64,000 nucleotides of DNA from Styela clava (lineage: Eukaryota > Chordata > Ascidiacea > Stolidobranchia > Styelidae): contig NC_135258.1 of the NCBI RefSeq assembly GCF_964204865.1, forward strand, positions 8,175,001 through 8,239,000. The letters are read 5' to 3'. The notes below the pieces were generated by a model. The model was not told where the DNA came from and did not search any database. It worked only from the letters and a program-made list of their open reading frames with translations. The translations under genes and the position numbers were made by a program. Positions 11,104 to 33,725 of this stretch are shown piece after piece. Numbering within the stretch: position 1 is the first letter of the stretch; every line of letters begins with the position of its first letter.

Positions 11104-11943
11104 ATGAAGATCATAATTCTACTTGCACTCGTGTCGGCAATGATGCTTAGTACTTGCGAAGGAAAGAGATTCAATAATTGCAACTGTGAGTGATGCTTTT
11201 ACTTTTTAAATAATACTCTTACATTACTAAATACTACTTTTTCTTTGGGATCTTTTGTATGTTTTTGAGGGGATGTTTTTGAGAGCGTGTTTTCTACAAT
11301 AGATTGCTTTATTTTTGTCAAGAGATCTGCGCGCTTAGGTTAATGTGCAACTGAAAAATATTTTTAAATGACAAATACGCTCATAAGCAGACTACACTGG
11401 TAGTACTTATTGGAAAGCAATGCAGATTAACAAAAGTAAATTATTAGGGAAGTACAGTCGATCAGAAATTAATCTTCGAGAAGTGTAAATGGTTCCAAGA
11501 ATAAATAAACTTTGTCGTGGCATATTTTTTGTTTCAGGGTGCTCCGAGAAAATATCAAAAAAAAAGTGCTCTCCTGGTTGTCAAAAAAAATGCCCTCCTG
11601 GTGAGTTAGTTACGGCACAACTTTTATGATTTATTAATAAATTTTGAAAACTTGATTCAAAGTATAAATATAAACCGACTTTCAGATGAATGCTACTTTA
11701 GGTTAAATATTTTTATAATAAAATTGAATTATTGTTCTTATATAATTTATGTTTAAACTATATTTAGAACATTGCTACATAAAGCGACCATCTTGCGTGT
11801 TCGGATGCCATATCAAAGCGTGGTATTTCAACGGAAAACACTGCAGGTGCGATCCGATATGGATCAATAAAATCCAATACTTTTCAATACCGTTCAATAA
11901 CTTGTTCAAAAAATCAGATAAGTGTTACGAGGCTTGTGGCTAA
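11104..11943 (+). CDS. K1: secreted Cys-rich Kunitz-like peptide, 106 aa
   Basis: Three coding exons: 11104-11185, 11538-11600 and 11768-11943 (TAA), both introns in phase 1. The protein starts with a hydrophobic signal peptide (MKIIILLALVSAMML) ending near CEG. A short Lys/Cys-rich exon follows that K2 and K3 lack. The last exon encodes a Kunitz-like module: Cys pairs, then AWYFN, then C-x-C, then NNLFKKSDKCYEACG. The WYF(N/D) and final NNxF...C-x3-C segments fit the Kunitz/BPTI family. The canonical FxYGGC Cys is absent, and an extra Cys lies two residues after the one following WYFN. The likely role is an extracellular protease inhibitor, ion-channel ligand or defence peptide; activity cannot be inferred. 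It lies between the two inverted arms. The stop is followed by a splice-donor-like CAG/GTGAAG. Confidence 0.78.
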
Positions 11944-12418
11944 CAGGTGAAGAACCATTTTAGTTTGTCGTGACAAATACAAACTACGTGATATAAGCGT
12001 CAATTTGTGAATGAGTTGTATCATTATGTACGATTGGTACTTGGAAATAATTTTTTTAATATTTATTGTCTTATCTGAACATCACTTTTTAGCACGAGCC
12101 ATTGATGTAGTGAGTTCTCTGCCGAGAAAAAACGAATGTGTCTGATATAGGTCTAGCTGTGAGCCAAGTTTATTTCAGTATTCGATTATAACTGTCAACT
12201 ATGAGATCTGTAAATTCAATCACATTTCAATTGAGAAGTCGGACTGCAAGTAAAGCAATAAATAAATAAATCAGTGAAGTACAGAGTTTAAAAAATGAAA
12301 AATCAAAAAAGAAATACATTTCATTAAGTTCATCAATCAGACATATTTTAAAATTTAAGATTTCAATTGTAATAAATAAAAAATTGTACTTATCGCTAAT
12401 TATCATTTCATTTTTCAG

Positions 12419-12525
12419 GATCACCTGTTGGAAGTTTATCGGATGCCTTTACATGTTTCAATTCTGTATATTATTTTTTGAGTATATATCTAAAAAAAAT
12501 AAAATGAAACGTAACATGTATGTTA
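12419..12525 (+). other. Candidate 3' UTR exon of K1 with poly(A) signal
   Basis: An acceptor-like TTTCATTTTTCAG ends at 12418, and AATAAA lies at 12498-12503. It would pair with the donor-like GTGAAG just after the K1 stop codon. This is an inference from splice-site sequence only. Confidence 0.4.
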
Positions 12526-13492
12526 TACTTTGAATTATTTTTGTCCTATTTTAAATGGGTGAGAAATAGAAGAAAATTCTCGACGAAATTAGCCAATTAC
12601 TGAATACCTGAACTGATATGTTATCTGAGCAGAATAAATTGAGATTATTAAAAGCGAAATGAAAAACTTTCATTTGTTCCACAAACTCAAAAATAGCCGA
12701 CGAAATTGATTCATGAATCCGAGCGAGTTTCATGTTAAGCTGCGGCTAGAAACATTGTAGCGGCAGATTATAGGCAAGGCTATGTTTATAAAGGTCTTTT
12801 TGTCTTATAACATTGAAACGAAAAGAGCAAGAATTCCATCTGTCGACGTTAATATTCTTTGTATTTTTTCCATGCCATAATTCTATGTCACCGGGTGAAA
12901 ATACTATAATTTCAGTCTGTCTGTATAATGGGATGGGCGTGGGTATGACTCTCAAATTTACCATTTTTTAGTTTGAAATCTCTACTCTCCGAAACATTAA
13001 AAATTGCAATTTATGATTGCACCCGAAGCGCTAATTGCACTGCGGTACCGTGATATCGTGCCGCATTTTTGAGGAAAACTTGATAACATAAAATATAATG
13101 AGTTTATAATAATTTTATAAAGTATATATAATAAATTTATGATTAATCACGATAAAAATGTCTAAAACGGGAGTTTACAATTCACGATGTTATGTATATT
13201 TTATACAGCGATAAAATCAATAAAAATATACAAAAAACACAGCATGTTTACTGCAATCGCACGAACGCAAAGTCATGTCGATTTTTAGTTTGTTTTGTAA
13301 GGTAACAGATCTTATCTTGTTAACGAGAAAGACAAAAAATACATTAAGTGAACTTGAGTAGCCCAACTCATATACACGGTATTGCAAATTTTATGGTTGC
13401 AATGAATTATCAAACCGGGTTACAGAAATGGTGACGTGTGCAATTACGAACTAAGTCATCAGAAATACTGTAGCCCAAAGTATACCCACTTG
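12526..13492. other. Intergenic, nothing recognised
   Basis: AT-rich sequence between K1 and the 13.5 kb MITE. I see no exon, RNA gene or clear repeat. Confidence 0.5.
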
Positions 13493-13730
13493 ATCTTTTG
13501 TACAAAGCGCCCACCAAAATGAAACAACCCCGCCAACGCACAATGTAAGAAATTTTGTAATTGTCCAGTTAAGGTTAGGGTTGGGAATGCGGATTGCCAT
13601 AGAAATTTAAAATTTCAAATCACCCCTTATCCTAACTGGAATTACTAATTTTTTATTTAAAAAAATGGCGGGTGTGTTTTTCCAAACTATCAAACTTTTG
13701 TATTAGTGGCGGGGGCTTTGTACAAAAGAT
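13493..13730. mobile_element. MITE with ATCTTTTGTACAAAG inverted ends
   Basis: The ends ATCTTTTGTACAAAGCGCCC and GGGGGCTTTGTACAAAAGAT are inverted repeats, 238 bp apart. Fragments of the same end (GCGGGGCCTTTCTACAAAAG) occur near 25235 and, more diverged, near 33990 and 35560. It is non-coding. Confidence 0.75.
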
Positions 13731-14272
13731 TCAAACAACTCACGTTAGAGCAGGCCTGTCTAAGGAATCGTTATTCATACAAAAAGACGTGCTTAGTGGC
13801 CAAAAAAAGCATTGGGCCTGACTATCTTTATGTGGCAAATAAATTTGACAGACAATGCCGGACCGGTCTTCTTTTGGTTGCTTTGTCGGATTTCGAAATG
13901 ATATTAATCAAGTCGTCGTATTGTGAGAAAGTCATGTTTTTATGAAACTATTTTTAAGGTTGAAAATTACAATATTGCTCTGATTTCAACCCAAATGCGT
14001 TTTGCACAACTTCACATACTCGATTGCACTTGTACGACATATAACGTTAAGATATAGGCTAGTGCCTAATAGCAGCTTAACCTGTTAACCCTATACAGCA
14101 AAAAATAATTTCAGTCATCAGCATTCGTGTACTAACTTATCCTCCAGAATATTCTGGATCAGATCAAACAGCCGCATACATCCGAATATTGGTCTCTTTT
14201 CAGCCGATACTGATACAAAAAATTTCCGATATTGGCAACTCATATAAATGCACCAAATGCCGATGCCATAGG

Positions 14273-14335
14273 CAGCCAACGCGTGTGCATATACAACCAA
14301 CTCATATGCATATACAGCCAAACCATATACATTTA
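14273..14335. repeat. Tandem repeat, three 21-bp units
   Basis: Units at 14273-14293, 14294-14314 and 14315-14335 follow CARCCAAYNCATATGCATA. Each unit contains a CATATGCATA-type self-complementary core. Related sequence occurs near 21815-21850 and 24525-24595. Confidence 0.7.
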
Positions 14336-14849
14336 GCAGAATATTGAGTTGGCTGTATATGGAACCCAATATTTGAATTTGGAGGAGACTTCTAATTTGG
14401 AGATTTGATATTTTTGGAATCAATGTTCAATCAAAATATTTCAAATATATATATTTTCAAAAAAATCCGTAAACAAATTAAATTATTTTCTTTTTCGAAT
14501 CTGAATCTGAAAATATGAATGTGATTCTTGAATATATTCCATAACGGGCCATGGGCCGAAATATACCATAATATTACAAAACATAACGCATCTCTAGGCC
14601 TCTAAGTACTTATTGTATCAAACACTTCCGAATAGGGCCCAGTGGAGCATGTCCTACTGAACCCATAAGGAACGAATATTTCCATACTGTCCCACGCCGA
14701 GATTAGGAAGGAAGGTTCTTTCTGCCATTTGGATAAAATTGCAATGTTTGGAAACCAACACTCAATATATTAGAATCCTGCCGATTTATGAAAGGTGCAT
14801 TCATAATTAAGCAACCCTCATATCGCCGGATGAGAACAGAAGGGGCCTA

Positions 14850-16492
14850 AGTCACATTTTTGGAAAAGTGACTTTTTTCAATATTTTGAGCCATGCCGCA
14901 TGCGGCTCTCAACAACCTTTCCTGTGGCTCTTGTGGATGCTTTAAAAATTAATTACTTTCAAAAAAAAAATTTTATTGAAAACTAATCCTTGAGTTGAAA
15001 TTAAAATGCGGAAGTCTACTAGTTAGTTGAATGAATTCCCCCGTGTTTATTTGTGTAGCGTTGACTAATCTACAAGATGCAATAGTGACGCAACAGTAAG
15101 CGTTTTCGCGGCCACTCGGACACTTTTCGCTTGGAAAGATTTTAGGCATAGCTGTAATCATTGGCTTGCTTTCGTGGATTTTCAGTTTTTGTCGCATTTC
15201 CGAAATTATGTATAAATCAAATATATATATTTATTTTATAGATAATCCTAGCAAACTTACGATTGCGTGAATCCTGAATGTTGATTTAAAATAGTGATAA
15301 AAAAAATTGGCAATAAAGGCCTTGTGCTTAATAGAGGGTCAGACGCTAATTATAACTAATTTCTTCAAATTTTAACGTTATTTTTTTAACAAAACAACAC
15401 CCCGATGGTTATTATAGCTGAAATACTTACTGAGTAACGCTCAATTTTCTTTACGGAATTTGCGAATTCAGCACTCAATGATTTTGATCATGTCATGTTT
15501 TAAGGCTTAATTCTTACTGCCCAAATGCTTCAAAATTTGACAATTGTAATCATTTTCCATGATAATAGACGCAACAATTCGTGAACACGAGTTAGTGTAC
15601 ATTGTTACAACGCAATTCACGACTGATTTCACATTCTACTCTTGGCTCAACGGCCATGCATGGTTAAGTAAAACGTTTACACATTCGAAACATTACTTGG
15701 CCAAGGATGGAAGGGATTACTGAAGAGATAATACAAAGTGCTTTAAAGGGAGTAGGGCATGACATTTCTTATCTGGTTACAACTTAATTGGTGTTTTTCA
15801 TACAAGTGACTCACTCATACCAGCTTTTGGAAAAACTTTTGGTTATTTTTAAATCCATGCGATTTAAATAACTAGAGTTTTCTAACGACCTAAAATCGCC
15901 TTTTTCACAATGAAACACCTAAAAGTCATTTTAACATTTAATTTTAAATATCTTTATGTTCGGTAATGCAAGAAATGGCTAATGATATGTCACCAATCAG
16001 GATGAGTTCAAAATCTGGGAAATTTATTTTAAATACCTAATCTGGTTTGACGTTTCTAAATTTACGGAACGGTCGGTACGTTTTTTGCAAAATATGGAAT
16101 TGAAACGATACGTTAAGTGCAGAGATAAGCATACAACACCATAACGCAAAGATAACTTTTCAAATTTTCCTTCTTTATTCTGATAGCGAGCGCCGTTGGG
16201 AAATCTCGCACAAATCACGATTGAGTCGGAGACGCGCGAGTTCGGTGTCCAAGCAGAGTGGCGCAGGTCACGTGGTACCGGATATTCGAATAATAAAATG
16301 CCATTCGAATATTTTACTATTCGAATATTTTGCTCAGCCCTAATTGTTACGTGTGTTGTTGTTACGATGACTTGGTATTTCAAATATGCGCTTAAGGTTT
16401 GTTGCCATTTTACCTTGTGTTGTTTGTGTGCGGCTCTTGATAACTTTGAGGTTTAAAATGCGGCTCTGGGACTAAAAAAGTTTGAGAACCAC
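14850..16492. mobile_element. Decayed hAT-like element
   Basis: The right end reads AAAAAAGTTTGAGAACCACTG (16472-16492). GCGGCTCT motifs occur near both ends (14900 and 16430), as in the element at 36995-38003. The left terminus is degraded, so 14850 is approximate. No intact transposase is seen. It abuts the inner edge of arm B. Confidence 0.45.
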
Positions 16493-16824
16493 TGATCTAT
16501 ATGATCGCCATTATGCTGCTGCTGTCGCCGGATTCTATATTGAACAATATCTTCTTTACGGCGTCTTTAATAGACAATTGCGTGAAGCATATTTCATTAA
16601 ATCCCGCAGGGCAGTTTATGAAAGCAATTTTTTCTTCTTCTTTTACGAAAGATTATATTTTGCTATAAATTATACACGCTCCACGAGGACGTCGCGAATC
16701 TGAAGTCAACCGAATCGCATATTCAAACTAACAGTGTTTCAATTCTACAATTTGTCGCATGAAAAGTTAAGAATGAAAATAATGTTTTTAGGAATCATTT
16801 GCTAAGTTCCTCTTACTGTTATTA

Positions 16825-17095
16825 CTTATCGATCTTGATCGGTAAGTATGTTGATAGGGATTTGTAGGTCTGTATGTCTGTGTGTATGATGCACGCGATA
16901 TCTCACGTAAGCGAGGTTCAATCTGCTCCAAATTTTGCATGTGCATTCATCTTAGCTCGGATCAGAAGCCTATTGATTTTGGATGGATTATGTCGTATAA
17001 TAAGCGAGTTATTATTGAATTAGTGATGGGACACACGGTGTCACTATGGAGTAAGACCACTGTTTTGGGGGATCCCCTAACCTTCGATCGATAAG
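16825..17095. mobile_element. MITE with CTTATCGATC inverted ends
   Basis: The perfect 10-bp ends CTTATCGATC and GATCGATAAG are 271 bp apart. The element interrupts arm B and has no counterpart at the matching place in arm A, so it inserted after the duplication. No transposase is present. Confidence 0.6.
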
Positions 17096-18153
17096 TCTTC
17101 GGTTTTCAACCGAATTCTAGTTTTCAATGTTGGGAGTACTAAGATATTGTTCATTGAACGGCAGGTCATTTCTCCTTGTCTATAATATACTTCTGATCCG
17201 TATGTGATCGTTTCCACAAAACTGCTTGAACAAGATAGTATTCAATTATGAACAGTTGTCACAGTGCGTGACCGGTATCGAAAAATTTCAGACTTTCGCA
17301 ATGCCAGATTTCGTAAAATCAAAAAGTAAAAAGACAGCGGTCACGCTGTGAGGCCTAAAAACCGTGTTCCTATTGGATTGGTTTCTTTTGAATAAAATAT
17401 TTTTATAGGAAATTTAAGAGTAAAAAAAAGTAAAATTGCCAAATAGCGAAATAATACAATCTTCAACCACTGAAAATTTCAAAGGAATTGGTCGATACCA
17501 ATGACAAAGGAGAATATGACAAAGAATTTTAACAATAGCATTAAAGAAAAGGCTTTTTTTATAACAACGTGAACATGACAAATAATACGATCTTAAGATC
17601 GTTTCTGTCTTTTTTTGATTTTACGAAATCTTGCTTCTCGAAAATCTGAAGTTTTCCAGTACCGATTACGCACTGTGGATTAGGTACGGCAAGTTACTTC
17701 TGCCCTCACAAATAATAGACAAACCGATTCCAAATTTTCGGGCCGAAGCCGCTGTAAAGATGTTACTTTTATTGTTTTGTAATTTCACCACGTTAAGCGA
17801 TATTTATCTTTATAATCAAGTCGTCAATTTTTTTATACGACTGTTTTGAAAAAATTTTCGTGCTGTGGATTTCATTGGGTCTCTCACGGAATCAAGACAT
17901 TCTTCCAACGCGCCCTGGAATGTGAAAGATGTGCGTTGATCATGTCATATCGTCTCCAAATTTTAAGCTGATTTTCCTGTAATACCGGTTCAACAATCTT
18001 AAATAACGATATTTGGGAAACGCGTCAGCAAGGCGTCTGCGAAAGGTCATTTGCTGTTTGAAATGCGCAAACCAATAAAAAAACGTGAATAAAATGGTAC
18101 AGACTGTCACCAGATGCATTCTTTACTGAAATACCAAATTATATTCCCGGCCA

Positions 18154-18310
18154 GCTGTCTGGCTCATCGTGCTTAACGTTAGGAATGCGCTCGCCACCAC
18201 ATCTCTGATTAGTCTGCGTGGGTTTGCAGGTTTGAATCCCATGCGGGGATAGTTTTGTGCGGGAGGATTACTGGACTCATCGCCGCCGTAGGGTGCTTGA
18301 TTGTATTAGA
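18154..18310 (+). mobile_element. tRNA-derived SINE
   Basis: An RNA polymerase III box A-like TGGCTCATCG lies at 18160-18169 and a box B-like GGTTTGAATCCC at 18229-18240. It is present in arm B but absent from arm A. A related fragment on the other strand lies near 31570-31650 (GCAGGTTCAAATACCC). The 3' end is uncertain. Confidence 0.6.
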
Positions 18311-18654
18311 ATTAAGTATGATGGCTTTTTTTTGCTATACCGATTGGTAATTTAAATTATAAAAAAGGGAATTCCTGTTTTTGCGGAAGGAATTTTTTTT
18401 TTCGTTGTTTAGCCATTGCGAAGGAAAGTTTATGGGACACAGAATTTATTTTGCAACGAACGTGGGCCACCATGGAATGGTAACTGGACGAGAGACCGTG
18501 GTTCGCCATAGGGTTAATCCGTCTTATCGACTTTCCTCTTCTTCGGGATAAATATGTGAATCATATCCTATTCAAGGCGAGGTAAACTGCGCAGATGACG
18601 CACAGCTATTACATGTTAAAGCTTTTTGATAGAATAATATTGTCTAGGCCAGTG

Positions 18655-18960
18655 GTTCGGAACCTTTTTTTCGTGGACAACTTTCGTTGCAAAAAAATCT
18701 GTGTTCCTCTAATTTTCATATGCAAGGGCTAAACTATAAGATTGAACGAAAATTCTTTCCGCAAATATAGGAATTTCTATTTTTATAATTAAAATTATAC
18801 CGATTGGTAGCAAAAAAACAGCATCGTAATTAATTCTGATACAATCAAATGTAACTAATTTATCAATAGATCTTGTAATGTTCGATAGATTTATGAAATA
18901 CAATACTTCTCAGTTTTTATGGAAACGTCGAGTTTTTAATAAAAATAAAAAAATGTAAAT
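18655..18960 (-). mobile_element. hAT-type MITE copy within arm B
   Basis: Begins CCAGTGGTTCGGAACC. It is the reverse-complement relative of 9404-9682, with the TTTGCAACGAAAG block and ATTAATTCTGATACAATC near the far end. Confidence 0.55.
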
Positions 18961-20407
18961 ACTACTCCCACATTACGTTTGTGTACCTGCCATATTATAT
19001 AAAAGTACATTTCGTTACTTGAGTTAAATATCGTTTGCGCTTTGTCTTACTTCTATCACAAAAAAAAATTTTTTTTAATTCCACTCAAAGCCTCAAAAGC
19101 AAGGTGATACCGAGATATCTATTAAGATAAAAGTTCAAGGTTGGCAACCGCAAGTATTTCACCGTGGCATATTGACGCACAAGCAAACGTTAGATTGACG
19201 TTCAATATAAATTTTGCGAATATATATTTATTAAATTTCAGTTAAATCAAATGCTTTCACCGCATCTTTGTAATGAACTTGCTTAGAATATTTTTCCTAA
19301 ATACTGTTTGATGTGTTTAAAATCACATTTTTTAATGCAAGATGGTACAATGGGTTCACCATCACACTAAATAAAACGCTTGATAACGCAAGTTCACAAT
19401 AAACAATGGTATGAATATTTGTATACACTGATAATAAAATATATACAATATGAAGACATAAAGCCTCATTTATCGCGAGTTTGAACTATTTTTAACATAA
19501 TGGCAGGCCACACATGTTAGTACGCGGTACGTTGGGTTACCCATAACCAGATAAGTCAACCTTGACATCAATCAATGTTTTGAAAGATGATAAGCAGATT
19601 TTTAAAGCCAGATAGATGGATGTACATTTATATAGGTTGCTTTATGCAATCAATCTGTATGAGAACTTTTGTTCTGAACGTAAAATAAATTAATAAAAGA
19701 AAAATGTTTTTCATCACCGTCATATTTTTTATTGAAATTTGCAAAGTCATCACTGACAAATATATTTTCAGCCAGTTGTTTGATTCTATTTTTTGAAAAT
19801 AACTCTTATAAATGTAGAACATGACTTGTTTCAATATTGTTGAAATGTGTTTGCGGTCAATTTACATCTATTTCATGTAATTGGCATGATTACCTAAGAA
19901 AGGCTATATGCATGAAACAGTTTGATAACTCTTTTTTTCTAAATAACGTTTTAATATTTCTTCCAATAGTTCTGAAAAAACAATCAAATCATTAGAGGGA
20001 GATAAGATTTTTCTTTTAAGTGTTAATGTAGTTCGACAAAGTGAAAGTACCTTTTTCCCAGATAAACTGTTCTTTGTCACCGGCATATATACATAACTAG
20101 TTGGTAAGAAATATATTTCATTGAACATTTGTTATAACTTACCAGTAGATATTATTGAAACAAATTTGATGAAGCACATTTTACTGAAATTACATTTTTG
20201 TCCAACCTGATTGAAACATGCACAATTTTCTACATTTATTCACTATGTTTATTAAAATATTCCAAATTATTATATAAGAGTTTGGAAGAGTTGTCAGTTC
20301 TGTATTTAGGATTATTGTTTGGTAAAATTGTCTTAAAATTTGAAGTGAAGTGATTTGTAGTCAAGTATAGTGCTCAGATTTAATCGTCATATTAAGGTAC
20401 TCCAACC

Positions 20408-21755
20408 CAGGGGTTCTCAACCTGGGGTTCGCGAACCTCCAAGAGTTCACGAGAAGATTTCCAGGGGTACTTAAATGGCAGTTGAGTTTTCTTGTGTTGC
20501 TATTTTTTCAATGTCCTTTACTATCACAGGAAAATGCGTACCAATTGAAACTCAGCGTGGATTTTCGCAGTTGTGACTTGACAATGTAAAATCCACAGTT
20601 TTGCCCCAAACTGGGAAATCTCAAAAAACAATGTGATGTTTGCTCTTCGCATTGAGAAACGTATTTGCAATAAACAGGGACATCCTGAATACTGAAAAGA
20701 CTACTTTTGTTTAAAATCATTTAAAACAGTGGTTCTCAACCTTTCTGGCGGACCGGTACAATTAAATAAAATGTACTCGCGGACCGGCAAAAAATTGAAA
20801 TGAGTGGAATAGAAAATATTAACATATTTTTGCAAAATGTAATGCAAAGTCGGGCACTCACTATGCTTTCAGATAAAAAAAGGCACACTTGAAAGCATTT
20901 CACATGAATAAAAACAACTAATGCACCGGCCCAAAATTGAAATAAGAAGATCAAACTTTGTCCAGAAGAAGACCTATTCTCCTCGTTCATGTTAAAAAAT
21001 ATCAAAATGCTTTATTGGTTATCTGATCTCATATCAATCCTTCTGCAGTTATTCAAACAAAATGAATTTACAAAAATGTCAGAATGTCGTATGTAAGTCA
21101 GGTTCACAATCCTGATGTGCATCCCCTGGAAACGAAGCTTTTGTTGCGCGTCTTGTGACCACTTGCAGGGTTGCAACAAGCTCAAAAATTTTACTGGATG
21201 TAATGGCGAAGACCTGGAATATTATACTGTCCATGACTGTTTTCTAGTTTGAACAAAGAAATATTCATAACCTTTTAGTTGGAAGCTCATATTATGCAGG
21301 AATGGAATGCAGGAAAGGCAGAAAAGACATGTGCCGATCTTTGGCTTTCTGAATCTCGCGAGATTTCACAGACGCTTCGCGATGAATCGGAACCGAAAAA
21401 GCAAAAAGTGTGATTACCTTGCGCCAAGAGGTCGTCGGGCCATTAATACCGCATACAGCAATATGTAGACGAATAAAAAATTGCGTATTAAACAAACACA
21501 ATGTCGTTATTTCAGGATCGGTAAATTGTTTGACACGACTGAAAAACAACAAAAATTTTCACAGACCGACAAAAAAGCTTCCGGTGCCGATGTCGGTCCG
21601 CGGATCAGTGGTTGGGAACCATTGCTTTAAAACACAGTTTGGAAATTATTAGTTATTATATTACAACTTTGTTTTGTGTCTGATTACTGGGGGTTCGTGT
21701 TGATAATTTTATGACCCCCATGGGTAATTAACAGGGAAAAGGTTGAAACCCCCCG
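20408..21755. mobile_element. Outer hAT-like element, interrupted
   Basis: The left end CAGGGGTTCTCAACC pairs imperfectly with the right end GGTTGAAACCCCCCG. A second element (20727-21624) lies inside, so the outer one is about 450 bp without it. Its left end resembles the solo end near 42003. No transposase is seen, and a target duplication is not obvious. Confidence 0.6.
20727..21624. mobile_element. Inner hAT-like element nested in 20408-21755
   Basis: Starts CAGTGGTTCTCAACCTTTC with GCGGACCGG just inside, and ends CGGTCCGCGGATCAGTGG then TTGGGAACCATTG. The flanking 8-mers ATTTAAAA (20719-20726) and CTTTAAAA (21625-21632) match at 7 of 8 positions, as expected for a hAT target duplication. 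It is about 898 bp and non-coding. Confidence 0.75.
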
Positions 21756-21993
21756 ATTAAAATAATATACATACATATCATACATACTGAATTAATTCAA
21801 TATACAGCTATCAGCTATGTATATATGATTTGGCTGTATATGCATATGCTTGAATATGAAAGGATACTAAACTTAACATTTTTTTCTTTGCATTGACCTA
21901 AATTAGTTAATGTTTAACTCAGTATTTGCTGGTGCGACGACTATATAGGTTATGACTTAGTAAGAATGAAACAATACTTACACGAGCAGCAAT

Positions 21994-24219
21994 ATGAAGG
22001 TGATATCAGCGGGCTATCCAAAAACTGGAACCAAAACTATGACTGTTGCTTTAAAAACATTGGGGTTCAATGTTTACGATTTCATGGAAAATACTACAAT
22101 TTTAGGCAGAGATTGGGAAAAAATATTTAAAGATGGATGGATCACTGAGGATTTTAAAAGAATGTACGAAAATGTTGAGGCAGTGTCTGACGCGCCACCA
22201 AATTTTTTCTGGGAAGAAATTCATAAAGCTTTCCCGGACGCAAAGGTAACATGACATCTAATTCGTCATACGACAGAATTTTATGAAGGTTTGCCAAATT
22301 ATGAAGTGAAAGAATTATAGATACAGTTGGAAATTCGAGCAGTACTGGTTGCAGAATCATCTATTCTAGATTCTAGAACAACGATTCTCAGCCAGCCAAA
22401 CCTATTAAAAAATTATTTGATAAATTGATTTAACTTTGTTTGTAGGAGCAAATGAATGAGGATGCTATTTTTGCTATTAAGTAGTAAATCTCGTTTTAAT
22501 TATTAAAGTGGAAGCACCTATTTTTGCGAGAATTTTTTGTTTTTTTTGTATTTTTTCCTTTGCATGGGAAATTTAATTGCCGCAGAATTTTTTGTGCAAC
22601 GAAAGTGGGTCACAAAATAAAAAAAGGCTGAGAAACACTGATCTAGATCGACTGCACGGGTTTCAATTGAGAGTGGTGACATATGATATGGGTATAACCA
22701 GACATGCCATGCTATTCATTCGATATAGTATTGAGTATAAAATATACTTACAGAACATAACACATTCTGACTAACCGCGATACCGATAACAAATAAGATT
22801 ATGCATCGACAAGACTTGGAATAAAAGATGCTTGAACAAAATTTGTTTGGAATATTTTGACTGTCACCCCATTTTTTCGTGGCGCAAATTTAACTCAATT
22901 GTACAATTCATCAAGTTTGTTAACTTTTATCATTTGCAGATTATTTTGACTACGAGGGACGAAGAGTCATGGCTTAAGAGTTTGGTAGCGCAGTTGCGAG
23001 CGGTTGAATCGAGCTGGACTTTGAAATTAATGTCACTCCTGACACCAACTGGGCGTTTGACATTTAAGATTCTTTTGGATTATTATATTGGTGATGAATA
23101 CATATATATATACATTACATTATTTAGTTTAACGTGTTTTAGTTGTTGCTAATATTGGACTACCTATTTATACAACAACTTTAAGTAATTAAAAAAAATA
23201 TATGCAACGGTTTTGTTTGAAGAATTCGTAATATTGGATCAATTAAAGCACATTCTATTATGTTTGAAGAGTGACCAAAGTCATTACTGCCCTAAAAGAA
23301 GGACACTGGAAAAATAACGCTTATGAGTGTAAATTTGATGAACCCTTAAAAGCTTTAAATATAGGAATGAGTATATAAATTTAAAATATTTGGATAAGTT
23401 CTGTGATTTACATTGTTTTTTGTTTTTTAGGATGCAATAATTTTCCTTAAGAATTTAATATTTGTTTAGGCCAAGAAATATATGGTCTTAAAGATTCGAT
23501 GCTATGGAAGCCATTTAGACGAATGGTCATTAATGAGCAAATTCTAAAATTAAAATTTAGAAAGCACAACTCACACGTACTGCAGGTAAAATAGAACTGT
23601 TTACTTGAGTTTGATAAAGGTTTCATTCGGGGTAAATAGTAACATTGGCTGCTAATATGTGTTTAATTATGCATACTATGCAAACACTAGCAAATCGTAA
23701 GGTGACATGCGGTAGATAAAAGACTCGGAAGTCTACGACAACACCGTTCTCATGGTGTGTGTGTGTGTTGTATATGACGCTTTTTACAATTAAAATCTTT
23801 TACGCCATACAATTAAAAAAAACTTTTAAATGCCGATACTATTTTTCCTAGTCGACTTTACAAAATCAAGTAATAAAGGGTATATATATGAGTATGTATA
23901 GAGAATGTCGTGCTGAGTGTGCTGTCCTATATCAGCATAAACCCTTTTTTTATTTTTACAGACAGCACCTCCTGAAAAACTCCTAGTTTACAATTATCGC
24001 CAGGGATGGAAACCTCTATGCAAATTTTTGGGTGTCCCTGTACCTAGCGTACCATTTCCACACGAGAATAAAGGCGCAAATATTATGGACGAATGGCTTG
24101 CCACGGATCCAATCATGATCAACATTGAAAAAGAATTGATGTTGTCACTGGCTGCCATATTTATTTTTTGTTGCATTGGTGGATACTATTTATTCAACTG
24201 GCTGCCAACGAATATATAG
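21994..24219 (+). CDS. Sulfotransferase-like P-loop protein (Sulfotransfer_4-type), 258 aa
   Basis: Four exons: 21994-22245, 22940-23090, 23470-23585 and 23962-24219 (TAG). Junction phases are 0, 1, 0 and the total is 777 nt. The start is the first ATG of an open exon that begins with the fold. Residues 3-15 contain AGYPKTGTKT, the 5'-phosphosulfate (PAPS) binding loop. Exon 2 starts at the next strand, IILTTRDEESWLKS, matching the 3'-phosphate-binding RD...S motif. Exon 4 has KPLCKFLGVPVP and PFPHENK, typical of this family of about 230-260 aa proteins. It ends in a hydrophobic segment (LAAIFIFCCIGGYYLF) that probably anchors the C-terminus in a membrane. A sulfotransferase reaction is inferred from the fold; substrates are unknown. 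The gene looks intact. AATAAA lies at 24752-24757. Intron 1 carries a hAT MITE. Confidence 0.88.
22379..22640. mobile_element. hAT-type MITE in intron 1 of the sulfotransferase-like gene
   Basis: Starts CAACGATTCTCAGCC and ends GGCTGAGAAACACTG, 262 bp. The flanks TTCTAGAA and ATCTAGAT share the core TCTAGA, the preferred target described for several hAT elements. It is related to 9404-9682. Confidence 0.7.
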
Positions 24220-25519
24220 AGCTTCTAGCCACAGATTCTCACAAAGTGCTCCGTATGGAGCCCCAGGGCCCAGTGTGAGCAACCTAGGGACTCCGCTATC
24301 GATTAGTTTACTTATTATAATACTGACTTCGTTATTTTTTAACTATATCTTTGATAATCATATTGTAATGACTATTAATTATAAATACTCAAATATATTG
24401 AGTGTTGATTTACTAACGTTGTAATTTCATCCAAATGTTGAAAAGAATTTTTATTCAAATATGTTTTCTTCCTTGTTAGCACATAATCTTGTAAATATCT
24501 GAATGGAGTTGGTAAAGTGATATGCTTATGCAGCCAACTCATGTACACATAACGCCAATGTCATATGCATATATAATATGGCCAACTAAATATTCCGCTA
24601 AATATATACTATATATAGGAAATATATACGGAAAGGTAGGACGAGGGAGTATGAGACTTATTTAATAAGACTTATTCTTATTTCTTAATTGGCTTCATTG
24701 ATTTTGTTTTGTCAATTATTTTTATGTTTATTGTGCTGATTGTCGAGTCGAAATAAACTTATACATAAAAGTAATAAACCTTGAGAATTTGTTCATGGCA
24801 ATAGATTGCGATATTAAATCCGTTACGCAGTTCTAATAATATATAGAATCATATTGATAGAACGAACAAATAAAATCTTTCAAAATATGTAACACGACAA
24901 TTATTTTAAATTCTGATTCACGTTAAAACTAATCTGAAAAAAAAATGCAAAATTGAAAGAATATTAGATTACAGACGCTTCTCTTTTTAAACATATTCTG
25001 TGTATGTCATAAAAAGTATGTATTGCTCTTATTTATCCTCTGCAAATGTAGAAAAAATGCTTGATTATTTCGCTTATGCCACAGATTGCGATGGAGATTG
25101 AAATTTTCAGATTATTCAATTTTCATTTTATGCAAGAAGCGAGAGCTGAATTGCATCAATGAATAAAAACTGTAACTGAATATTGACCACCGGTATTTTT
25201 TTTATTGTGAGCGGTGACGGGAGTATTTTTAGCGGGGCCTTTCTACAAAAGATTCTAGCAATCTAGTGACGTTGGGACTACATGGATCCCCCACCCCCCT
25301 CCTAATAATAAGGCAGTGAGTTATTTATTCACCAGAACCATGTTTAATCACTCTGTATAATGTGATGATTTGTATATACTAGTGTAGCAAGACTTTTACG
25401 TGTTATTTACGACGAAATAAACGATGTGCGTATTAATCTGAAAACTTATTTGCTCCAAGAACAATTTATTTTTCAAATTCATAAGATTTAAGGAATATTT
25501 TCATCACTTAAATATAACT
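24220..25519. other. Intergenic, duplicated non-coding sequence
   Basis: Contains the 3' flank of the sulfotransferase-like gene and a 21-mer-like repeat near 24525-24595. A block at about 24900-25130 is related to 26820-27050 and, on the other strand, 34590-34810. A block at 25208-25320 is related to 35539-35646. No gene is recognised. Confidence 0.5.
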
Positions 25520-26000
25520 TTATCTGTCTATCTATTCCAGTAATTATAAATATTATGCTTGTACGCCAACCGCTAAGTTTATTCTTTATTTATTCCACAA
25601 ACAAACCGTTGGGTTTGGACTTTAGGAATATTTGCTGTTAATTTTCAATTAGCTGAATGTATTCCTCACCGCATCCATCCAATTTAGTTTTATTTTTGTT
25701 GTTTGGAAGGTTGAAATATTTTATCTTTTCACGCATCTTGAAAGTTTAACGCAGTGTTCAAATTACATTTATTTTAATTGGAGAAATTGTATATTGAGTT
25801 TATGATAATCTGGGATTAAAAAATACCTTAAAAAGAAAGTTTACTACACAATGTTGTGTAACTTTGAAACGCGACGAAAACCGATAAATCTAAATACAAA
25901 AATCAAAACACTTGTTTGATACAATCGTACAAATCTTAGCGTCGTGATGCTTCCTCGGTTCATGCTGAGAACTGGAATCATTTTCTGTCGCTGTTTGTCA
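25520..26000 (+). repeat. Direct duplication, copy 1
   Basis: Closely matches 30650-31035 in the same orientation; shared stretches include TTTATTCTTTATTTATTCCA and AAACGCGACGAAAACCGATA. A further block shared with that copy, GGTCAACGGAA, follows at 26348. It is non-coding as far as I can see. Confidence 0.7.
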
Positions 26001-26432
26001 AAGGACCGAGGATTTCGACATAATTTTCTAGTTCAGGTCTCGAGATTAATTGTCCTAGAATTAAAAAAAAAATTTTTGGCCTCTAATTCAGTAGGCTTCC
26101 TCATGTTCAACCTACACTGCGTGTTTGTTTGTAAGACTTCGATCACATCCGATTCTTCTCCGATCCACTCCTCGCGCAATTTTGCAAAGAATTATATTGG
26201 TCGTATTTTTTGCGTTATAGTTCACTACTATTGGCCAGTATCAGAATCATTCTTGCCAGAGATGGATTCTGGGGCCAAATCACATCGTTTGTGCAATGTA
26301 AATTTGAAATGATCTCGCATATTTATATTACTTAACGGCAAGACCGGTCAACGGAACTTTGATTTAACAACACCAAGCGAATTGCCGTGCTAGATATTTT
26401 CAAAATTTCTTTTCTATCATTATGATTCTATA

Positions 26433-26697
26433 TTTTTGGACACGTTTAGTGGCCATAACGATCGTTTCAAAATTTTGTTGTTATTGTTATTGTTATTTGT
26501 CTCCGTCTCCATTTTTAAAAAATCGCTTTTCTCTTCGAATACTGGACCAATTACTTTGATATTTTCAGTGGTTAAAGATAAAATTTTTCTCCAGAAGGCT
26601 ATTACTTTTTTTTCTCGCTATGACGTCATCAAAATTATTGCCACTGGGTGGCGCTACGTGTCCATATATTTGAGCATAGCTCTCTTGTTTATTATTA
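26433..26697 (-). repeat. Dispersed repeat M2
   Basis: Nearly identical to 34135-34372: GGACACGTTTAGTGGCC, then TTGTTGTTATTG, then CGCTATGACGTCATCAAAA, then TGTCCATATATTTGAGCATA and GCTCTCTT. The upstream flank CAAGCGAATTGCCGTGCTAG is also shared with 34898. Confidence 0.75.
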
Positions 26698-27378
26698 CGA
26701 TTTAGTAAAAGCTTTGAGTATTCACAGTCTATTGCTCTATGGACAATTTTTCGAAAATATCTAGCACGACAATTAGCTTGAATTCTAATCTATGTTATAC
26801 CTAGTTTGTTACGTAAAATTTTAAAACTGCCGACGTAAACGCAAAATTATACACGCATTCCTCTTCAAGCAGATTAAATGTGTGTCTAGAAAAGTAAATA
26901 AAAAAAAATTATTCCTCTCGTTTGTTCTCTGGAAATATAGAAAAAATGTGTGATTGTTTCGCTTATAAAGCGCGTGGTAATAAGTTAGGATGTTAAACAA
27001 TGCGAATCGGTGACAGAATACTTCTCTAAGGAGGTTTGAAAAAGAATTTTGGAGCATTTTTACGCACTCGTTTTAAAAGTCCATTGTTTATTTTCTATTG
27101 CGCTTGTATAAAACTTACGTTGGCTCTTTCGTATCAATACTAGCTCTTCTGCAACTGTAAAATTAGCGTTTCTAATAACGAGACACGTGGTTCAATTTTT
27201 AAATAGATTTGAATTCAAATCATACGACCCAATATAAAGGAAATGTGTTTTATATTTTGCAGTTAGTGGGTGAAATAATATATTTAAATCAAATATAGGG
27301 AGGGTAATTGAGTGACTTATTTCTATTATGAGATCATTTTTTCAAATTAGATAATTTCGTATAAAATATAATACTTTT

Positions 27379-27607
27379 GGTACTAGTATGTGAACCAAGA
27401 TGGCGGACACCGGAACGTAGTATGTGTACCAAGTTAGGGTTAGGCCATAATTGCAAGTTCATATACTACGAGAGTCACTTGGCCAGTCGCCGAACTCGTA
27501 ATAGAACTAGAATAAGGCAAATTGAAATAAAATTATGGCCTAACCCTAACCTGGTACACACACTACGTTCCGGTGTCCGCCATCTTGGTTCACATACTAC
27601 GGGAGTA
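27379..27607. repeat. Palindromic MITE-like repeat P1
   Basis: Standard P1 with both TTAGGGTTAGG and CCTAACCCTAACC arms. It starts about 310 bp upstream of the K2 start codon and ends about 80 bp from it, so it occupies the likely K2 promoter region. Confidence 0.87.
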
Positions 27608-27689
27608 TGATACATTTTATACTTTCTCATTGCTTTAAACTTAAGTAATATCTAGGACAAAGCTACGTTCGAGGAAAAAAAACATTGTA

Positions 27690-28715
27690 ATGAAAGTCTT
27701 ATTTGTAGTTGTCCTTGTGTCGGCCGTGATGTTATTTGTCTGCGAGGGATATAATTTTTGCAAGTATAGTGAGTATTTCTTTTTACAACTTTTCAGAAAC
27801 AATTTGTATAACCAATAAACTCAAGCGGTTTGAGATATATATAAAAATTCAGGCGCTCCGGTAGTATGTGAGCCAAGATGGCGGACACTGGAACGTAGTA
27901 TGTGTACCAGGTTAGGTTTAGGCCATATTTTTATTTCAATTTTTCTTATTTTGGAGTTTGGGGATTAGCCAAATGACTCCCGGAGTATTCGTACCGTCAA
28001 ATATGGCCTAACCGTAAACTGGTACACATACTACGTTCCGGTGTCCGCCATCTTGGTTCGCACACAACGGTAGTACCAGAATTTTTCTATATATACCATC
28101 CTGAAATTCATATTCTTACTCTACAACATCTGGCCGATTGTGTTGATGTATTTATATAACTGAAATATTTGTAAGGTGAAGCAAATCTGGATCAAAACTA
28201 TTTTTGAAAAATAATGCGGGTCCTGTTATATCATGGAGTATAAGTCAACCAAGGACTCCCTCAGTGCTTTATGATAGCAACAGTCAAAACTTTTGTATGA
28301 GCGATTCACATTCATAATATTTGCTACTCCAAAAGATTCGTCAAAAGTTCTGTGGATTTCGGAAAAATACTGGAAGGAGCCTCCATCTGGTATCAAAATT
28401 TTTCTTGATTGATTTTGTCCGGGAACTATTGAATTGATAAACAATTAATTACCGGTAGTCAACAATTCGACAATTAAAAGTTTTACTATTGGGAAAACAA
28501 TATTTTTGAGATAATATTCACCAATAACTTTTTTTCATTCAGCGAAATGCAGGAAATCGCCGCCAAACTGTACTAGGTACTGCTATGTCAAAGCATGGTA
28601 TTTTGATCGGGAGACTTGCGCCTGCAGAAAGATAAAAGCCAACAAGTACAGTATAAGACCAAAGAATGGGCTCTTCTATTCAAAAAGCCAATGTCAGAAA
28701 GTTTGTGGAGTTTAG
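27690..28715 (+). CDS. K2: secreted Cys-rich Kunitz-like peptide, 83 aa
   Basis: Two exons: 27690-27768 and 28543-28715 (TAG), with a phase 1 intron. The signal peptide MKVLFVVVLVSAVMLFVCEG is followed by a compact domain of eight cysteines. In that domain SPPNCTRYC leads into AWYFDRETCAC and the end is FYSKSQCQKVCG. The WYFD and terminal C-x3-CG parts are Kunitz-like. The central GGC Cys is missing and a C-x-C appears instead. It is paralogous to K3 (very similar exon 2) and, more distantly, to K1. It is expected to be secreted; target unknown. The intron hosts a P1 repeat at 27852-28077. AATAAA lies at 28853-28858. The stop codon overlaps a donor-like TAG/GTAATT. Confidence 0.8.
27852..28077. 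repeat. Palindromic MITE-like repeat P1 in K2 intron
   Basis: Starts GGCGCTCCGGTAGTATGTGA and ends ACACAACGGTAGTACC. The middle block is in the opposite orientation to the other copies (ATTTCAATTTTTCTTATTTT precedes the ACTCCCGGAGTATT motif). Confidence 0.85.
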
Positions 28716-29680
28716 GTAATTCTCATTTATTTATTTGCTGCCACGATACATTTACCTGATAAATCATATCTTGAGATGAAAATTATATATAATTATGCGT
28801 GGTTAGAACTTAGTAATTAATTATTCTTGAGATTCCTGTAAGATTTCGATCCAATAAAAAACAAACTTCAATCTGACTATTAGTATTTCAAGTTCCATAA
28901 TTTGCAAGAATTTCCAGCCAATGTATTTCTGCTTATTATTTATACTTACTTCCCATAATTGAATACTTATCTCTTTTATTTTAAATATCTCGTCAATACC
29001 TCGTAAAAATTGTGCAATACCAGATATATTATTCATCTTCAGAATCAAGTTGGAAGATTCTTGGATCCCATCGTTTTTTGTACTGAATTTTGTTCTATAT
29101 GTGCAAAATCGTGACTCGAATCTCAATACTGTGAATTATTTTTTGTCTAATTCAAAGCAGGTGCAAATTAGAAACAGATGCCCGATGCTACTGTTGATTA
29201 CTTACTTATACAGGAGCTATGGTTGAATGTTAGAGTTACGGTATCTTTACTGCTATAATGGAAAGTAAAATTGAGGCGTGACACAACCCAGATTGCGTTA
29301 TCTTAGCAAAGTTCAAATCTCGTAATGGAAGTTAAATAATCTATCACTCATTGAGATCAAATCGAGTTGAAATCTATAGTTGGTGTTGCTAAAATAGCTC
29401 GCGTTTTGTAAAGAAACAGTGATATATATATATATATAATGAAAAATATGTTAACAAAAATAGACCATTTTGATCGTTCTTCAAACTTCAATACAAACAG
29501 AATCCGTTGTTTCATCGAAACATTCAAAAGTTAGTAGTTTTGTTTCAGGAACTTATCTTATAATCTGAATAAATTTATTGATTTGCAAATATAGGATATC
29601 ACGGAAACGATTACAAACTCAATTAAGATGTATACATAATATTGTTTGCGTAACTTTCTCTGTATCATAGTACAACAATA

Positions 29681-30078
29681 ACAAGAGAGCTACGCCCAAA
29701 TATGTGGAAACGTCTGTTCGCAGTACAGGACGGTTTACCGTACCGTCAGATCACAGTCTACAAATATATTAACACCAAGCGAAGCAGTACAGTCGGACAC
29801 AAAACGACGTCCGATGTCGGCAGAACGTTCGATGACGTCATAGCAAACAAACACGAATCTCACAGAGCTAACAGAAATATTTGAAATAAATAAAAAGAAT
29901 AGCCTTCTGAAGAAAAGTGTTATCTGTAACCACTGAAACTTTCAGAGCAATTGGTCCAGTAATCAAAGAGGAAAGCGACTTTTCAGATTTTCCACTGGGT
30001 ATCTAAAAAGTGTCAAAAAACAAGAACAACAACAACAAAATATTGAAACGATCGCTATGTCCACTACGTGTCCAATAA
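29681..30078 (+). repeat. Dispersed repeat M2, longest copy
   Basis: Runs from ACAAGAGAGCTACGCCCAAA to CTACGTGTCCAATAAC. It includes GATGACGTCATAGC, an AATAGCCTTCTG block and an ACAAGAACAACAACAACAAA tract. The retained blocks are partly conserved among copies. No inverted ends are seen. Confidence 0.7.
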
Positions 30079-30649
30079 CAGTACAGACTGACATCACTGT
30101 ATGAACCTAATTAAAGCTGGGCAGTTCGATTCGAATAGCAAATTATTCAAAGCGGTTCAGACACAAATTTCGAATCGTCGCCATTTTGTTTTTTATTTGG
30201 CCGCCAAAGGCCGAGATGGATTCCTCATTTTTTTATTTAAATTTTTTTATTTTTTAAAATGCAATTGTCACATATGCTCGTTTTCTTCTTAAAGATTTAT
30301 TGATTAAATATGTTTCTTATTGGATGTGAACGATCAGTACACAGTGATGGGTTTTATGTTTTTAGTAATTTATGTGCCTGCGGAAGACCGATCCATCACT
30401 ATAAAAAGTCACATGCCCTTGAATATATTCCTAGTATTAGAGATTTGAATAAAAAAAAAATATTCGATTCGAGTGTGAAATTATCAGGTGATCGAAAATG
30501 ACCAGCCCTGAACCTAATCGAGTCCGGTCTATTTGGCGACCACTCAGATCCCAACTTACAGCATTACAACAGCAGGCCCACTGAAAGTTTATTTTACGTT
30601 AGTTTACACACATCAATGAGGCTTGAGGAATATTGACAGCACTTTGATA
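30079..30649. other. Intergenic, nothing recognised
   Basis: Two short open frames at about 30100-30500 show no recognisable domain and no signal peptide. Confidence 0.5.
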
Positions 30650-31035
30650 CAGCTTTATCTGTCTATATATTTTCCAGTAATTATAAATATTAGGTTTGTA
30701 CGACTACCGCTAAGTTTATTCTTTATTTATTCCACAAACAAACCGCTGGGTTCACATCTTTTTCACGCATCTTGAAAGTTACACGCAGTGTTCAAAATTA
30801 CATTCTTTTTAATTGGAGAAATTGTATATTGAGTTTATGACAATCCGAGATCAACAAATACCTCAGAAATAAAGTTTACAACACAATGTTATGTAAATTC
30901 GAAACGCGACGAAAACCGATAAATGTAAAAACAAAAATACAAAACTCTTGTTTGTTACAATCGCACAAATCTCGGAGTCGTAATGCTTCTTTGGTTCATG
31001 CTGAGAAATGGAATCATTTTCTATCGCTGTTTGTC
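30650..31035 (+). repeat. Direct duplication, copy 2
   Basis: Partner of 25520-26000. After 31035 the sequence continues with GGCCGGTCAACGGAATTTTA, which in copy 1 lies about 310 bp further on (26345). Copy 1 therefore gained an insertion or copy 2 lost sequence. Confidence 0.7.
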
Positions 31036-31847
31036 CACGTCAGGGCCGGTCAACGGAATTTTATTTCAACAACACGGTTCACAGATGGTATTTATTTTTG
31101 TCTGTATTTTGGTACCGTAGCGAATGTGGATTGTAACTATGGATAATATTGTTATTAACACATTCATATTAATAGCATGTTACATTCTCTGAAATAGGTC
31201 ACTTTATAATTCGCGACAGCGATATATTGTGCTTGTGATTATTATTCTGTTAAATGTATTTTCAATTTATCAGTATTCGGATTGGATTGTGCATCTTTAC
31301 AATATACGAACATTTGAAATTCAATACATTGTGTGCTCATTGACCTCTGAAGGAGTACAGATAGGGGTTACACTCCATAACGTGCGTTCAATAACACGGG
31401 AATTCGATCATTTCCCTATAGTACCACATCAGACAAAATCTTATGGAATCTCGTGCTATTTTATTATTAAAACGCGTAAACCGACATAGTAGCTGAAAAC
31501 TAATACGAAATTCATTACCAGGGAGATACTTTCTCGATAGAATACACTGTACAAGTCTGCCTTGAAGACCTGATTACCCTACGCAGGTTCAAATACCCTA
31601 ATCTAGAGAATATTATATGGCGAACCACGGCCTCCCGTCCGATTACCAGCCCCTGTCAAATATGGAATTAGGTAGGCCAGTTGTATGTCTCAGATGCACG
31701 GAATGTGACGGTGGAGGAAGCCGAAATCGACAACGGGTCAAACACCTACGGTAGCGACTAGCGAGGCGTCCAGCATTCTTTCACCATTGGATTCGAAGCT
31801 GCGAACATATTCAGGGTAATCGAGTGGTGCGAGAGCATGGTATATGG

Positions 31848-32392
31848 CAGAGGTGGCCAACACGTCGATCGCGATCGACCGGTCGATCGTCACGTCTCGA
31901 GCAGTCGATCGCGTCAGATGTTGAGTGTATTTTATTGAAATACCACAAAAAATTGCCTCGAACCAGTTGTGTGTTTTACAACAGAAAGAATACAGTACTT
32001 TACATGCGCAAAATACAATATACTCATCGGTTTTTGAGGCTGGACAAGCCCGAAAGCATATTATTACTTGACAAATGCAAGTTTTTCCGCTGCCAAGGTT
32101 TAAAAATGCATTGCCGAATATCGCGTGTCTAGACTGACAAACGATCTTACAATAACTTCCGCAGTATGCGAAAATTATTGTCTCACTCCAAGAGTAGTGT
32201 GATAAATTTTATTCGCAATGGTAGCAGTGGCATCAAAATTTCCAATTTGTTCTAATTATAAGCAAGCGAAGAATCGCGTTTGGAGAAAATTGTAAATTAA
32301 ATAGGCTACTGAAGTTTGAGCAGTTATGTAACATTCATTCAGTATTTATTTTTCGATGCTTGGATAATACTTGACAAGGTTTCTTGAAGAAT
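31848..32392 (+). mobile_element. hAT-like element, left-end copy without its right end
   Basis: Starts CAGAGGTGGCCAACACG followed by many GATCG motifs. It is collinear with the complete element at 35708-36986 up to GAAGAATTTTCAAC, where it runs into K3 3' flank. The left flanking 8-mer is GTATATGG (31840-31847). Confidence 0.72.
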
Positions 32393-32404
32393 TTTCAACA
32401 AATC

Positions 32405-33725
32405 AAAATTAGCACGCAATCGTTTCTAATTTGCACCCGCTTTGAATTAGACACAAACTCACAGTATTGAGATTCGAGTCACGATTTTTCGTTTATTTTG
32501 CACATATAGAACAAAATTCAGTACACAACACTGTAACAAGCGATGGGATGCTTCCAACTTGATTCTGAAGATGAATAATATACCTCGTATTACACAATTT
32601 TCAGTTTGCACACAGTTATTTACAAGGTCTTTAATTAAAATAAAAGATATACATAACTATTTATTCACGGAAGTAAATATAGATAATAAGTACAAATATA
32701 TATATTAGCTGCAAATTACCAAATTTGACATTTGGAATTCGAAACCACCTTCAACCGATATTATTACTAATAGTCAGATTGGAGTTTTTCATTTGATACA
32801 GAAATCTCAAGTATAATTAATTACTAAGTTCTAATCACGCATAATTAAATATATATATAATTTTCATCTCAAGCTATGATTTATTATGTAATGTATCGTG
32901 GCAGCAAATAAATAAATAAGAATTACCTAAACTCCACAAACTTTCTGACATTGGCTTTTCGTAAAGAAGAGCTTATTCTCTGGTTTTATATCGTACTTGC
33001 TGGTTTTTATCGTTCCGCATCCGCAGATCTCATGATCATAATACCATGCTGTGGCTTGACAGTTTCTGGTACAGGCTGGCGGCGACCCGCATTTCGCTGA
33101 ATATAAAATAATGTAATTTGCGATTATCTCAAAAATATTACTTTTTGAGTAGATCTCCACGCAAGAAAACTCTCAATTGTCAAAATATTCAGTTCTCGGT
33201 AGTTCACAGTCAAAATCAACCAAAAAAAATTGATACGAGACGGGAAGAACTTCCATTATTTTTTATGCTCGTGGAACAATGAGCGAATATCTAACTTGCA
33301 GTAGCACCCAATACCAGTGACAAGGATATTACTTGTGAATGTGAATCGCTCATATAAAAGTTTCGACTGTTACAATCATAAAGCACCGGCAGGATCCGCG
33401 ATTGACGTTTGCTTAAATGATATAATAGAAGTCGCGTTACTTTTCAAAAATAGTCTAGTTTTAGTTCTCGCTTCACCTTGCAAATATTTCAGTTGTATAT
33501 CTACACAAACGGTCAAAGGTTGCAACACGAGAATATGATTTTTAAGGTGGTATAGAAGAAATTATATATCTTATCAAACCACTTGTGATTATTGTTCGTA
33601 GAGAAGTACGTCAAAAGGTTGTGCAAGAAATACCCACTTCTGCAAGAATATCCTTCGCAGGCACAGACCATTGCGGCCGTCACAAGGACAACAACAAAAA
33701 TGGATTTCATGGCAATGCTTCTTTT
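32405..33725 (-). repeat. Inverted gene duplication, right arm (contains K3)
   Basis: Mirror image of the K2 region: 3' flank (about 32405-32926), both K3 exons, intron and 5' leader. See K2. Confidence 0.75.
32927..33710 (-). CDS. K3: secreted Cys-rich Kunitz-like peptide, 80 aa
   Basis: Two exons on the minus strand: 33710-33638 and 33096-32927, with a phase 1 intron. The chosen ATG at 33710 starts a clean signal peptide (MKSIFVVVLVTAAMVCACEG); an upstream in-frame ATG would add a basic non-signal extension. The mature part has eight cysteines in the K2 pattern: SPPACTRNC, AWYYDHEICGC and FFTKSQCQKVCGV. As in K2 the Kunitz GGC Cys is replaced by a nearby C-x-C. The reading frame is intact, so the gene may be functional. 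It lies between two copies of the same hAT-like element (31848 and 35708). It is expected to be secreted; target unknown. Confidence 0.8.

Follow-up and report, generated by a model that had tools for sequence, protein, structure and literature searches.

In BPTI, the disulfides Cys5-Cys55 and Cys30-Cys51 hold the Kunitz fold, and a third one, Cys14-Cys38, acts as a clamp on the loop that binds the protease. The cysteine spacing of Kunitz domains and their 1-6, 2-4 and 3-5 pairing are given in PMC3273431. In the descriptions of Ra-KLP, a Kunitz-type peptide of the tick Rhipicephalus appendiculatus, antiprotease activity is absent and maxiK channels are stimulated (PMC9865953, PMC3273431). Here, we analysed a window of 64,000 nucleotides of the genome of the ascidian Styela clava (contig NC_135258.1, positions 8,175,001 to 8,239,000; C10:8175001-8239000 in our own contig numbering), in which three genes, K1, K2 and K3, had been predicted to code for secreted Kunitz-like peptides with rearranged cysteines. 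We propose, with a probability of about 0.65, that K1-K3 are secreted single-domain peptides that derive from an eight-Cys Kunitz ancestor of a type still found elsewhere in the genome, on contig C4, that their disulfides have been rewired, and that they most likely act as extracellular ligands rather than as standard inhibitors.

Gene models and cysteine pattern of K1, K2 and K3

Sequence-based models of K1, K2 and K3 describe three small spliced genes with signal peptides, and all their introns are GT-AG introns of phase 1. The first exon of each gene codes for the signal peptide and, at the exon's end or close to it, for the N-terminal Cys of the mature peptide, and the last one for the Kunitz-derived domain with seven Cys, ending with the stop codon. 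K1 has three exons on the forward strand (11104..11185, 11538..11600 and 11768..11943 of the window). K2 has two on the same strand (27690..27768 and 28543..28715), and K3 has two on the reverse strand (exon 1 at 33638..33710, exon 2 at 32927..33096). The phase 1-1 middle exon of K1, which supplies four Cys, is missing from the K2 and K3 models. Since skipping it yields a stop codon at the junction, the open frame of K1 requires this exon. The least usual splice site among these introns is the K3 donor, GTGGGT. The predicted proteins are of 106 (K1), 83 (K2) and 80 (K3) residues, and their pairwise identities are 61% for K2 and K3, 33% for K1 and K2 and 29% for K1 and K3.

The exon-encoded domains have the spacings C-x6-C-x3-C-x11-C-x-C-x24-C-x3-C (K1), C-x6-C-x3-C-x11-C-x-C-x22-C-x3-C (K2) and C-x5-C-x3-C-x11-C-x-C-x22-C-x3-C (K3). 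Including the N-terminal Cys, mature K2 and K3 contain eight Cys each and mature K1 twelve, four of them from its exon 2. All three domains have the aromatic core W-Y-(F/Y)-(D/N) followed by C-x-C, and a terminal F-x5-C-x3-C. None has the six-Cys Kunitz spacing C-x8-C-x15-C-x7-C-x12-C-x3-C, and the YGGC motif is absent from all of them. Counted from the first aromatic residue, the Cys of canonical Kunitz domains are found at offsets -16, -7, 9, 17, 30 and 34, and those of K1-K3 at -16 (-15 in K3), -9, -5, 7 and 9, plus the terminal pair, with none at -7 or 17. Thus, the Cys residues of K1-K3 occupy the places of BPTI residues 5 (one off in K3), 30, 51 and 55, and places 14 and 38 are empty. 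The stretch of the former protease-binding loop holds two Cys spaced C-x3-C, which frame VFG, TRY and TRN in K1, K2 and K3, respectively.

These models and spacings agree with the original prediction as regards the signal peptides, the overall cysteine pattern and the preserved WYF(D/N) and terminal F...C-x3-C parts. The loss of the GGC half-cystine (Cys38) that it reported is confirmed, but Cys14 has left its place too. It had also placed the extra Cys two residues after the one that follows WYF(D/N), which we correct: in alignments of PDB sequences with L026, a Kunitz domain of the same genome, it is the second Cys of the C-x-C motif that aligns with BPTI Cys30, and therefore the extra Cys is the first one, at BPTI place 28 by count.

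Invariant residues occupy 19 of the 54 gap-free columns of the K1-K3 alignment, including all seven Cys columns (P = 2.8e-4). K2 and K3 share eight of eight mature Cys despite 22 differences over 60 aligned residues (P = 0.019). Chance does not account for the common Cys pattern: the cysteines stay, and the remaining sequence evolves fast.

Kunitz domains with a C-x-C motif in the same genome

The 376.6 Mb genome yielded 66 Kunitz matches, 65 of which were analysed (L078 was excluded). Seven sequences that were fragmentary or poorly read (L032, L047, L054, L065, L066, L067 and L069) were removed, which left 58 domains. In the scan of Cys offsets, the script failed to anchor 5 of the 61 rows, and those were read by eye. 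An extra Cys at +7 along with that at +9, i.e. the C-x-C motif of all three K domains, is present in four of the 58 domains (L008, L026, L045 and L068). These four are located on contig C4 and have one Cys beyond the canonical set. In nine other cases (L039, L042, L051, L055, L056, L059, L062, L063 and L064, on contigs C10, C18 and C4), Cys14 and Cys38 are both missing. A different eight-Cys arrangement was observed in L060 (C4:6984418-6984673), where one additional Cys lies four residues downstream of Cys14 and a second one next to Cys38.

The genes of two C-x-C domains, L008g and L026g, were modelled as single-domain genes, with a signal exon that ends with C-K, a phase-1 intron, an x-K-C5 start of the domain exon, eight mature Cys and a terminal stop. 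No further Kunitz exon intervenes within the stretch read. The N-terminal Cys in the signal exon, the phase-1 intron and the x-K-C5 sequence are common to K2, K3, L008g and L026g, and the peptides that span the exon junctions are CKKKC and CKTKC in the C4 genes (the latter in L026g), CKYTKC in K2 and CRTKC in K3. K1 also has its Cys in exon 1 as in the C4 genes, but its additional exon intervenes. L008g and L026g further resemble K2 and K3 by their C-x-C after the aromatic core, their terminal C-x3-C and a stop just past the last Cys. In contrast with the K genes, they retain Cys14, Cys38 in a YGGC motif and the canonical loop length, and Pfam identifies them plainly as Kunitz domains.

A profile of the four C-x-C domains gave scores of 17.9, 18.7 and 19.4 bits for K1, K2 and K3, which none of 5000 Cys-fixed shuffles reached in each case, figures that are somewhat flattering because the four domains were chosen after the likeness had been noticed. 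Part-wise shuffles indicate that the core from W to C30 carries the signal (1, 0 and 0 of 2000 shuffles as high for K1, K2 and K3, respectively), with a suggestive contribution from the C-terminal part (65, 45 and 38 of 2000). In pairwise rankings against the 58 domains, the C-x-C domains fill the first four ranks for K2, and three of them are in the top four for K3. For K1 the C-x-C domains take ranks 2 to 5, after the six-Cys domain L035. K1, K2 and K3 form a single group (99/97) in a tree based on 53 columns.

Profile searches against Pfam and the PDB point in the same direction, each match being weak and all of them jointly appearing one-sided. The K2 exon domain has a sub-threshold match to PF00014 (12.7 bits for a cut-off of 21; expectation value E 0.16; profile positions 10-52 of 53). 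Among 177,635 PDB sequences, a profile made from K1-K3 alone retrieved seven matches at E up to 10 (best E 1.9), and K2 alone retrieved two (best E 0.36); all are Kunitz proteins. No clear match to a non-Kunitz family was found in Pfam: PF03128 (CXCXC) matches whole K2 over nine residues with 15 bits, right at its 15-bit cut-off (13.4 bits for the K2 exon domain), and PF18732 and PF10690 remain sub-threshold. The Kunitz relationship of K1-K3 rests mainly on the intermediates in the same genome. It is through the profile, the shuffles and the gene layout of these C-x-C domains that the predicted Kunitz affiliation is supported; the rearrangement is seen in the empty places 14 and 38, the loop C-x3-C and the additional Cys at 28, and the signal peptides are consistent with secretion.

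Points against the proposed descent, and the history of the locus

Several results weigh against the reading that we favour. Full-length K1, K2 and K3 have no Pfam Kunitz match (PF00014) above the gathering score, and for K1 and K3 not even a sub-threshold one was obtained, the K1 exon domain being without any Pfam match. With a profile of the other 54 domains of the genome, K1, K2 and K3 score 8.3, 8.4 and 5.3 bits, values equalled by 9, 5 and 32 of 5000 shuffles, and in part-wise shuffles with that profile the K3 core has no signal (918 of 2000). With the C-x-C profile, no signal was detected in the stretch before W (147, 1956 and 997 of 2000 for K1, K2 and K3); this fits a rebuilt loop, yet it limits the claim of relationship. 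In the tree, the K group adjoins L068 with weak support (88/38), not all four C-x-C domains. A topology that joins K with the four is not rejected (p-AU, from the approximately unbiased test, 0.371), which does not establish a clade. No convincing signal exon was found for L068, and the one assigned to L045 stands upstream of another Kunitz exon, L060. Furthermore, the N-terminal Cys is not specific to C-x-C domains. Lastly, the ratio of non-synonymous to synonymous substitution rates (dN/dS) of K2 and K3 is 0.72 (0.76 for the mature part), and their coding DNA is no better conserved than most flanks, with identities of 0.74 for exon 1 and 0.82 for exon 2, as compared with 0.85 for the downstream flank, 0.85 for the intron end and 0.78 for another intron stretch.

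An exclusive link between the N-terminal Cys and Cys28 was also considered and rejected, as candidate signal exons of the six-Cys domains L016, L018, L041 and L043 carry a Cys near their end. In this control, signal exons were sought in 19 further stretches by filtering for hydrophobicity and donor sites and were judged by eye. The candidates of L001, L022, L027 and L050 contain no Cys.

A Pfam Kunitz cut-off that is never passed and the missing Kunitz signal before W are what one would expect if K1-K3 formed an unrelated cysteine-rich secreted family that came to resemble Kunitz domains by convergence. We regard this as very improbable: the scores with the C-x-C profile exceed those of the shuffles, the signal exon followed by a phase-1 intron is a layout shared with the C4 genes, and seven of the seven PDB matches are Kunitz proteins.

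The dN/dS value and the weak conservation of the exons relative to their flanks, together with a dead exon close to K1, could indicate decaying Kunitz duplicates with relaxed constraint, drifting cysteines and no present function. This explanation appears improbable, although slightly less so than convergence. The three reading frames are intact and have splice sites, and the Cys columns are invariant both in K1-K3 (7/7) and in K2 and K3 (8/8), with the P values given above.

When the whole genome was searched in six frames, K2 (E up to 1) and K1 (E up to 10) each retrieved three places, namely K1, K2 and K3; as such a search scores the best candidates only, three genes is a lower bound. The family as understood here consists of these three genes and one dead exon, all in the window. 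The dead exon is what remains of a 5' region and a first exon similar to those of K1 (8880..9050, reverse strand), with stops in frame and 143 of 200 aligned bases identical. K2 exon 2 is located in one arm of an inverted duplication (28499..29199, forward strand), whose 76% identical partner (32401-33139, reverse strand) carries K3 exon 2. On both sides of K1, several inverted-repeat blocks that are ~75-82% identical were found at 8325-10617 and 16501-19432, which suggests that this gene is embedded in a larger element or inverted duplication. A search with the K alignment for relatives among the genomes of bacteria and archaea and among viral contigs, in which records of the genome under study may be omitted, gave 101 and 40 pattern-matching stretches, respectively, none of which was confirmed by tblastn.

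Other features of the window include a repeat of ~200-260 bases at 2974-3216, 5518-5765, 6455-6711, 27384-27605 and 27843-28088, with one copy inside K2 intron 1 and another just upstream of K2. The copy at 27384-27599 is also self-complementary, a foldback resembling a miniature inverted-repeat transposable element. Between K1 and K2, a sulfotransferase-like gene is present in pieces (21994-24219, forward strand; PF17784, three stretches above the cut-off). A possible retroelement remnant is found at 40000-40401 on the reverse strand (PF13966 zf-RVT, E 4.4e-5, under the Pfam cut-off). Scans of the window for Rfam families at the gathering threshold and for tRNAs yielded no matches.

Proposed disulfide rewiring, possible function and altered Kunitz peptides

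We propose that an eight-Cys Kunitz peptide of the kind that persists on contig C4 was the ancestor of K1-K3. Cys14 and Cys38 would have left their places, and a C-x3-C motif would have arisen in the old inhibitor loop. By elimination, the Cys5-Cys55 and Cys30-Cys51 bridges are probably retained, and the N-terminal Cys may bond Cys28. The argument for this last pairing is elimination in L008g and L026g, not covariation, because six-Cys genes carry an N-terminal Cys too. In the simplest pairing, the two loop Cys would then bond each other and close a tight ring around the three residues that they frame. That the Cys14-Cys38 clamp has been exchanged for this loop-internal disulfide, so that a small rigid ring exposes three variable residues for contact with a new target, is a tentative proposal that we hold with less than even confidence. 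Since nine of the 58 domains of the genome are devoid of both Cys14 and Cys38, their loss is tolerated, and the clamp appears to be dispensable in other settings of this genome as well.

Without the clamp and the extended loop, the peptides would no longer be standard serine-protease inhibitors. They might act extracellularly as rigid ligands of a channel, a receptor, or a microbial or foreign protein, in the manner of some altered tick Kunitz peptides. Such a non-inhibitory ligand is the most likely function in our view, at about even odds. K1-K3 could instead still inhibit serine proteases, their rebuilt loop binding a particular protease as in TdPI and other cysteine-altered Kunitz proteins of ticks, but this is unlikely. 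Both clamp Cys are displaced, no residual Kunitz signal is found before W, and the old P1 place, which we take to be six residues before W by count from its position in BPTI, holds G, Y and N in K1, K2 and K3, respectively; our reading of L045 gives Arg at this place. Nevertheless, TdPI is described as a tryptase inhibitor with a modified fold and disulfide pattern (PMC9865953), and the scorpion peptide LmKTT-1a as inhibiting trypsin without a CysII-CysIV bridge (PMC3616063). Loss of the clamp alone is thus no proof of lost inhibition, because a peptide without it still inhibits trypsin.

If the disulfides were rewired in this way, a Kunitz peptide would have given up the clamp of an inhibitor in favour of a different disulfide, with less modified relatives still present in the same genome, and the survival of an ancestor-like eight-Cys form would allow the conversion to be retraced. 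Disulfide rewiring and its effect on inhibition would become directly testable, with K2 studied beside its canonical relatives.

No account of the cysteine arrangement of K1-K3 was found in the titles and abstract openings returned by literature searches, which does not prove that none is in print. Kunitz peptides with other alterations offer several partial parallels. In the 2009 study of Ra-KLP by Paesen et al., the loop bridge is reportedly lost and the N-terminus pinned by two extra bridges. Ra-KLP (PDB 2W8X), whose fold is described as extensively modified (PMC9865953, PMC3273431), is like K1-K3 a single-domain secreted Kunitz derivative. Unlike them, it is a tick protein, and it is not among the seven PDB matches of the K profile. 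LmKTT-1a, a scorpion delta-KTx, is presented as a Kunitz fold that has a new bridge instead of CysII-CysIV (PMC3616063). It differs from K1-K3 in that this bridge, Cys51-Cys59, is at the C-terminus, and it is reported to inhibit both trypsin and Kv1.3 (PMC3616063). Among Ixodes Kunitz proteins, group III is described with a first spacing shortened to C-x5/6-C, as in K1-K3 (PMC3273431), and group G6 with a lost Cys2-Cys4 bridge (PMC3890586), but the passages that describe these groups make no mention of a loop C-x3-C combined with C-x-C. Kunitz peptides with altered cysteines are already known as such, and the combination found in K1-K3 appears to be a new arrangement among them.

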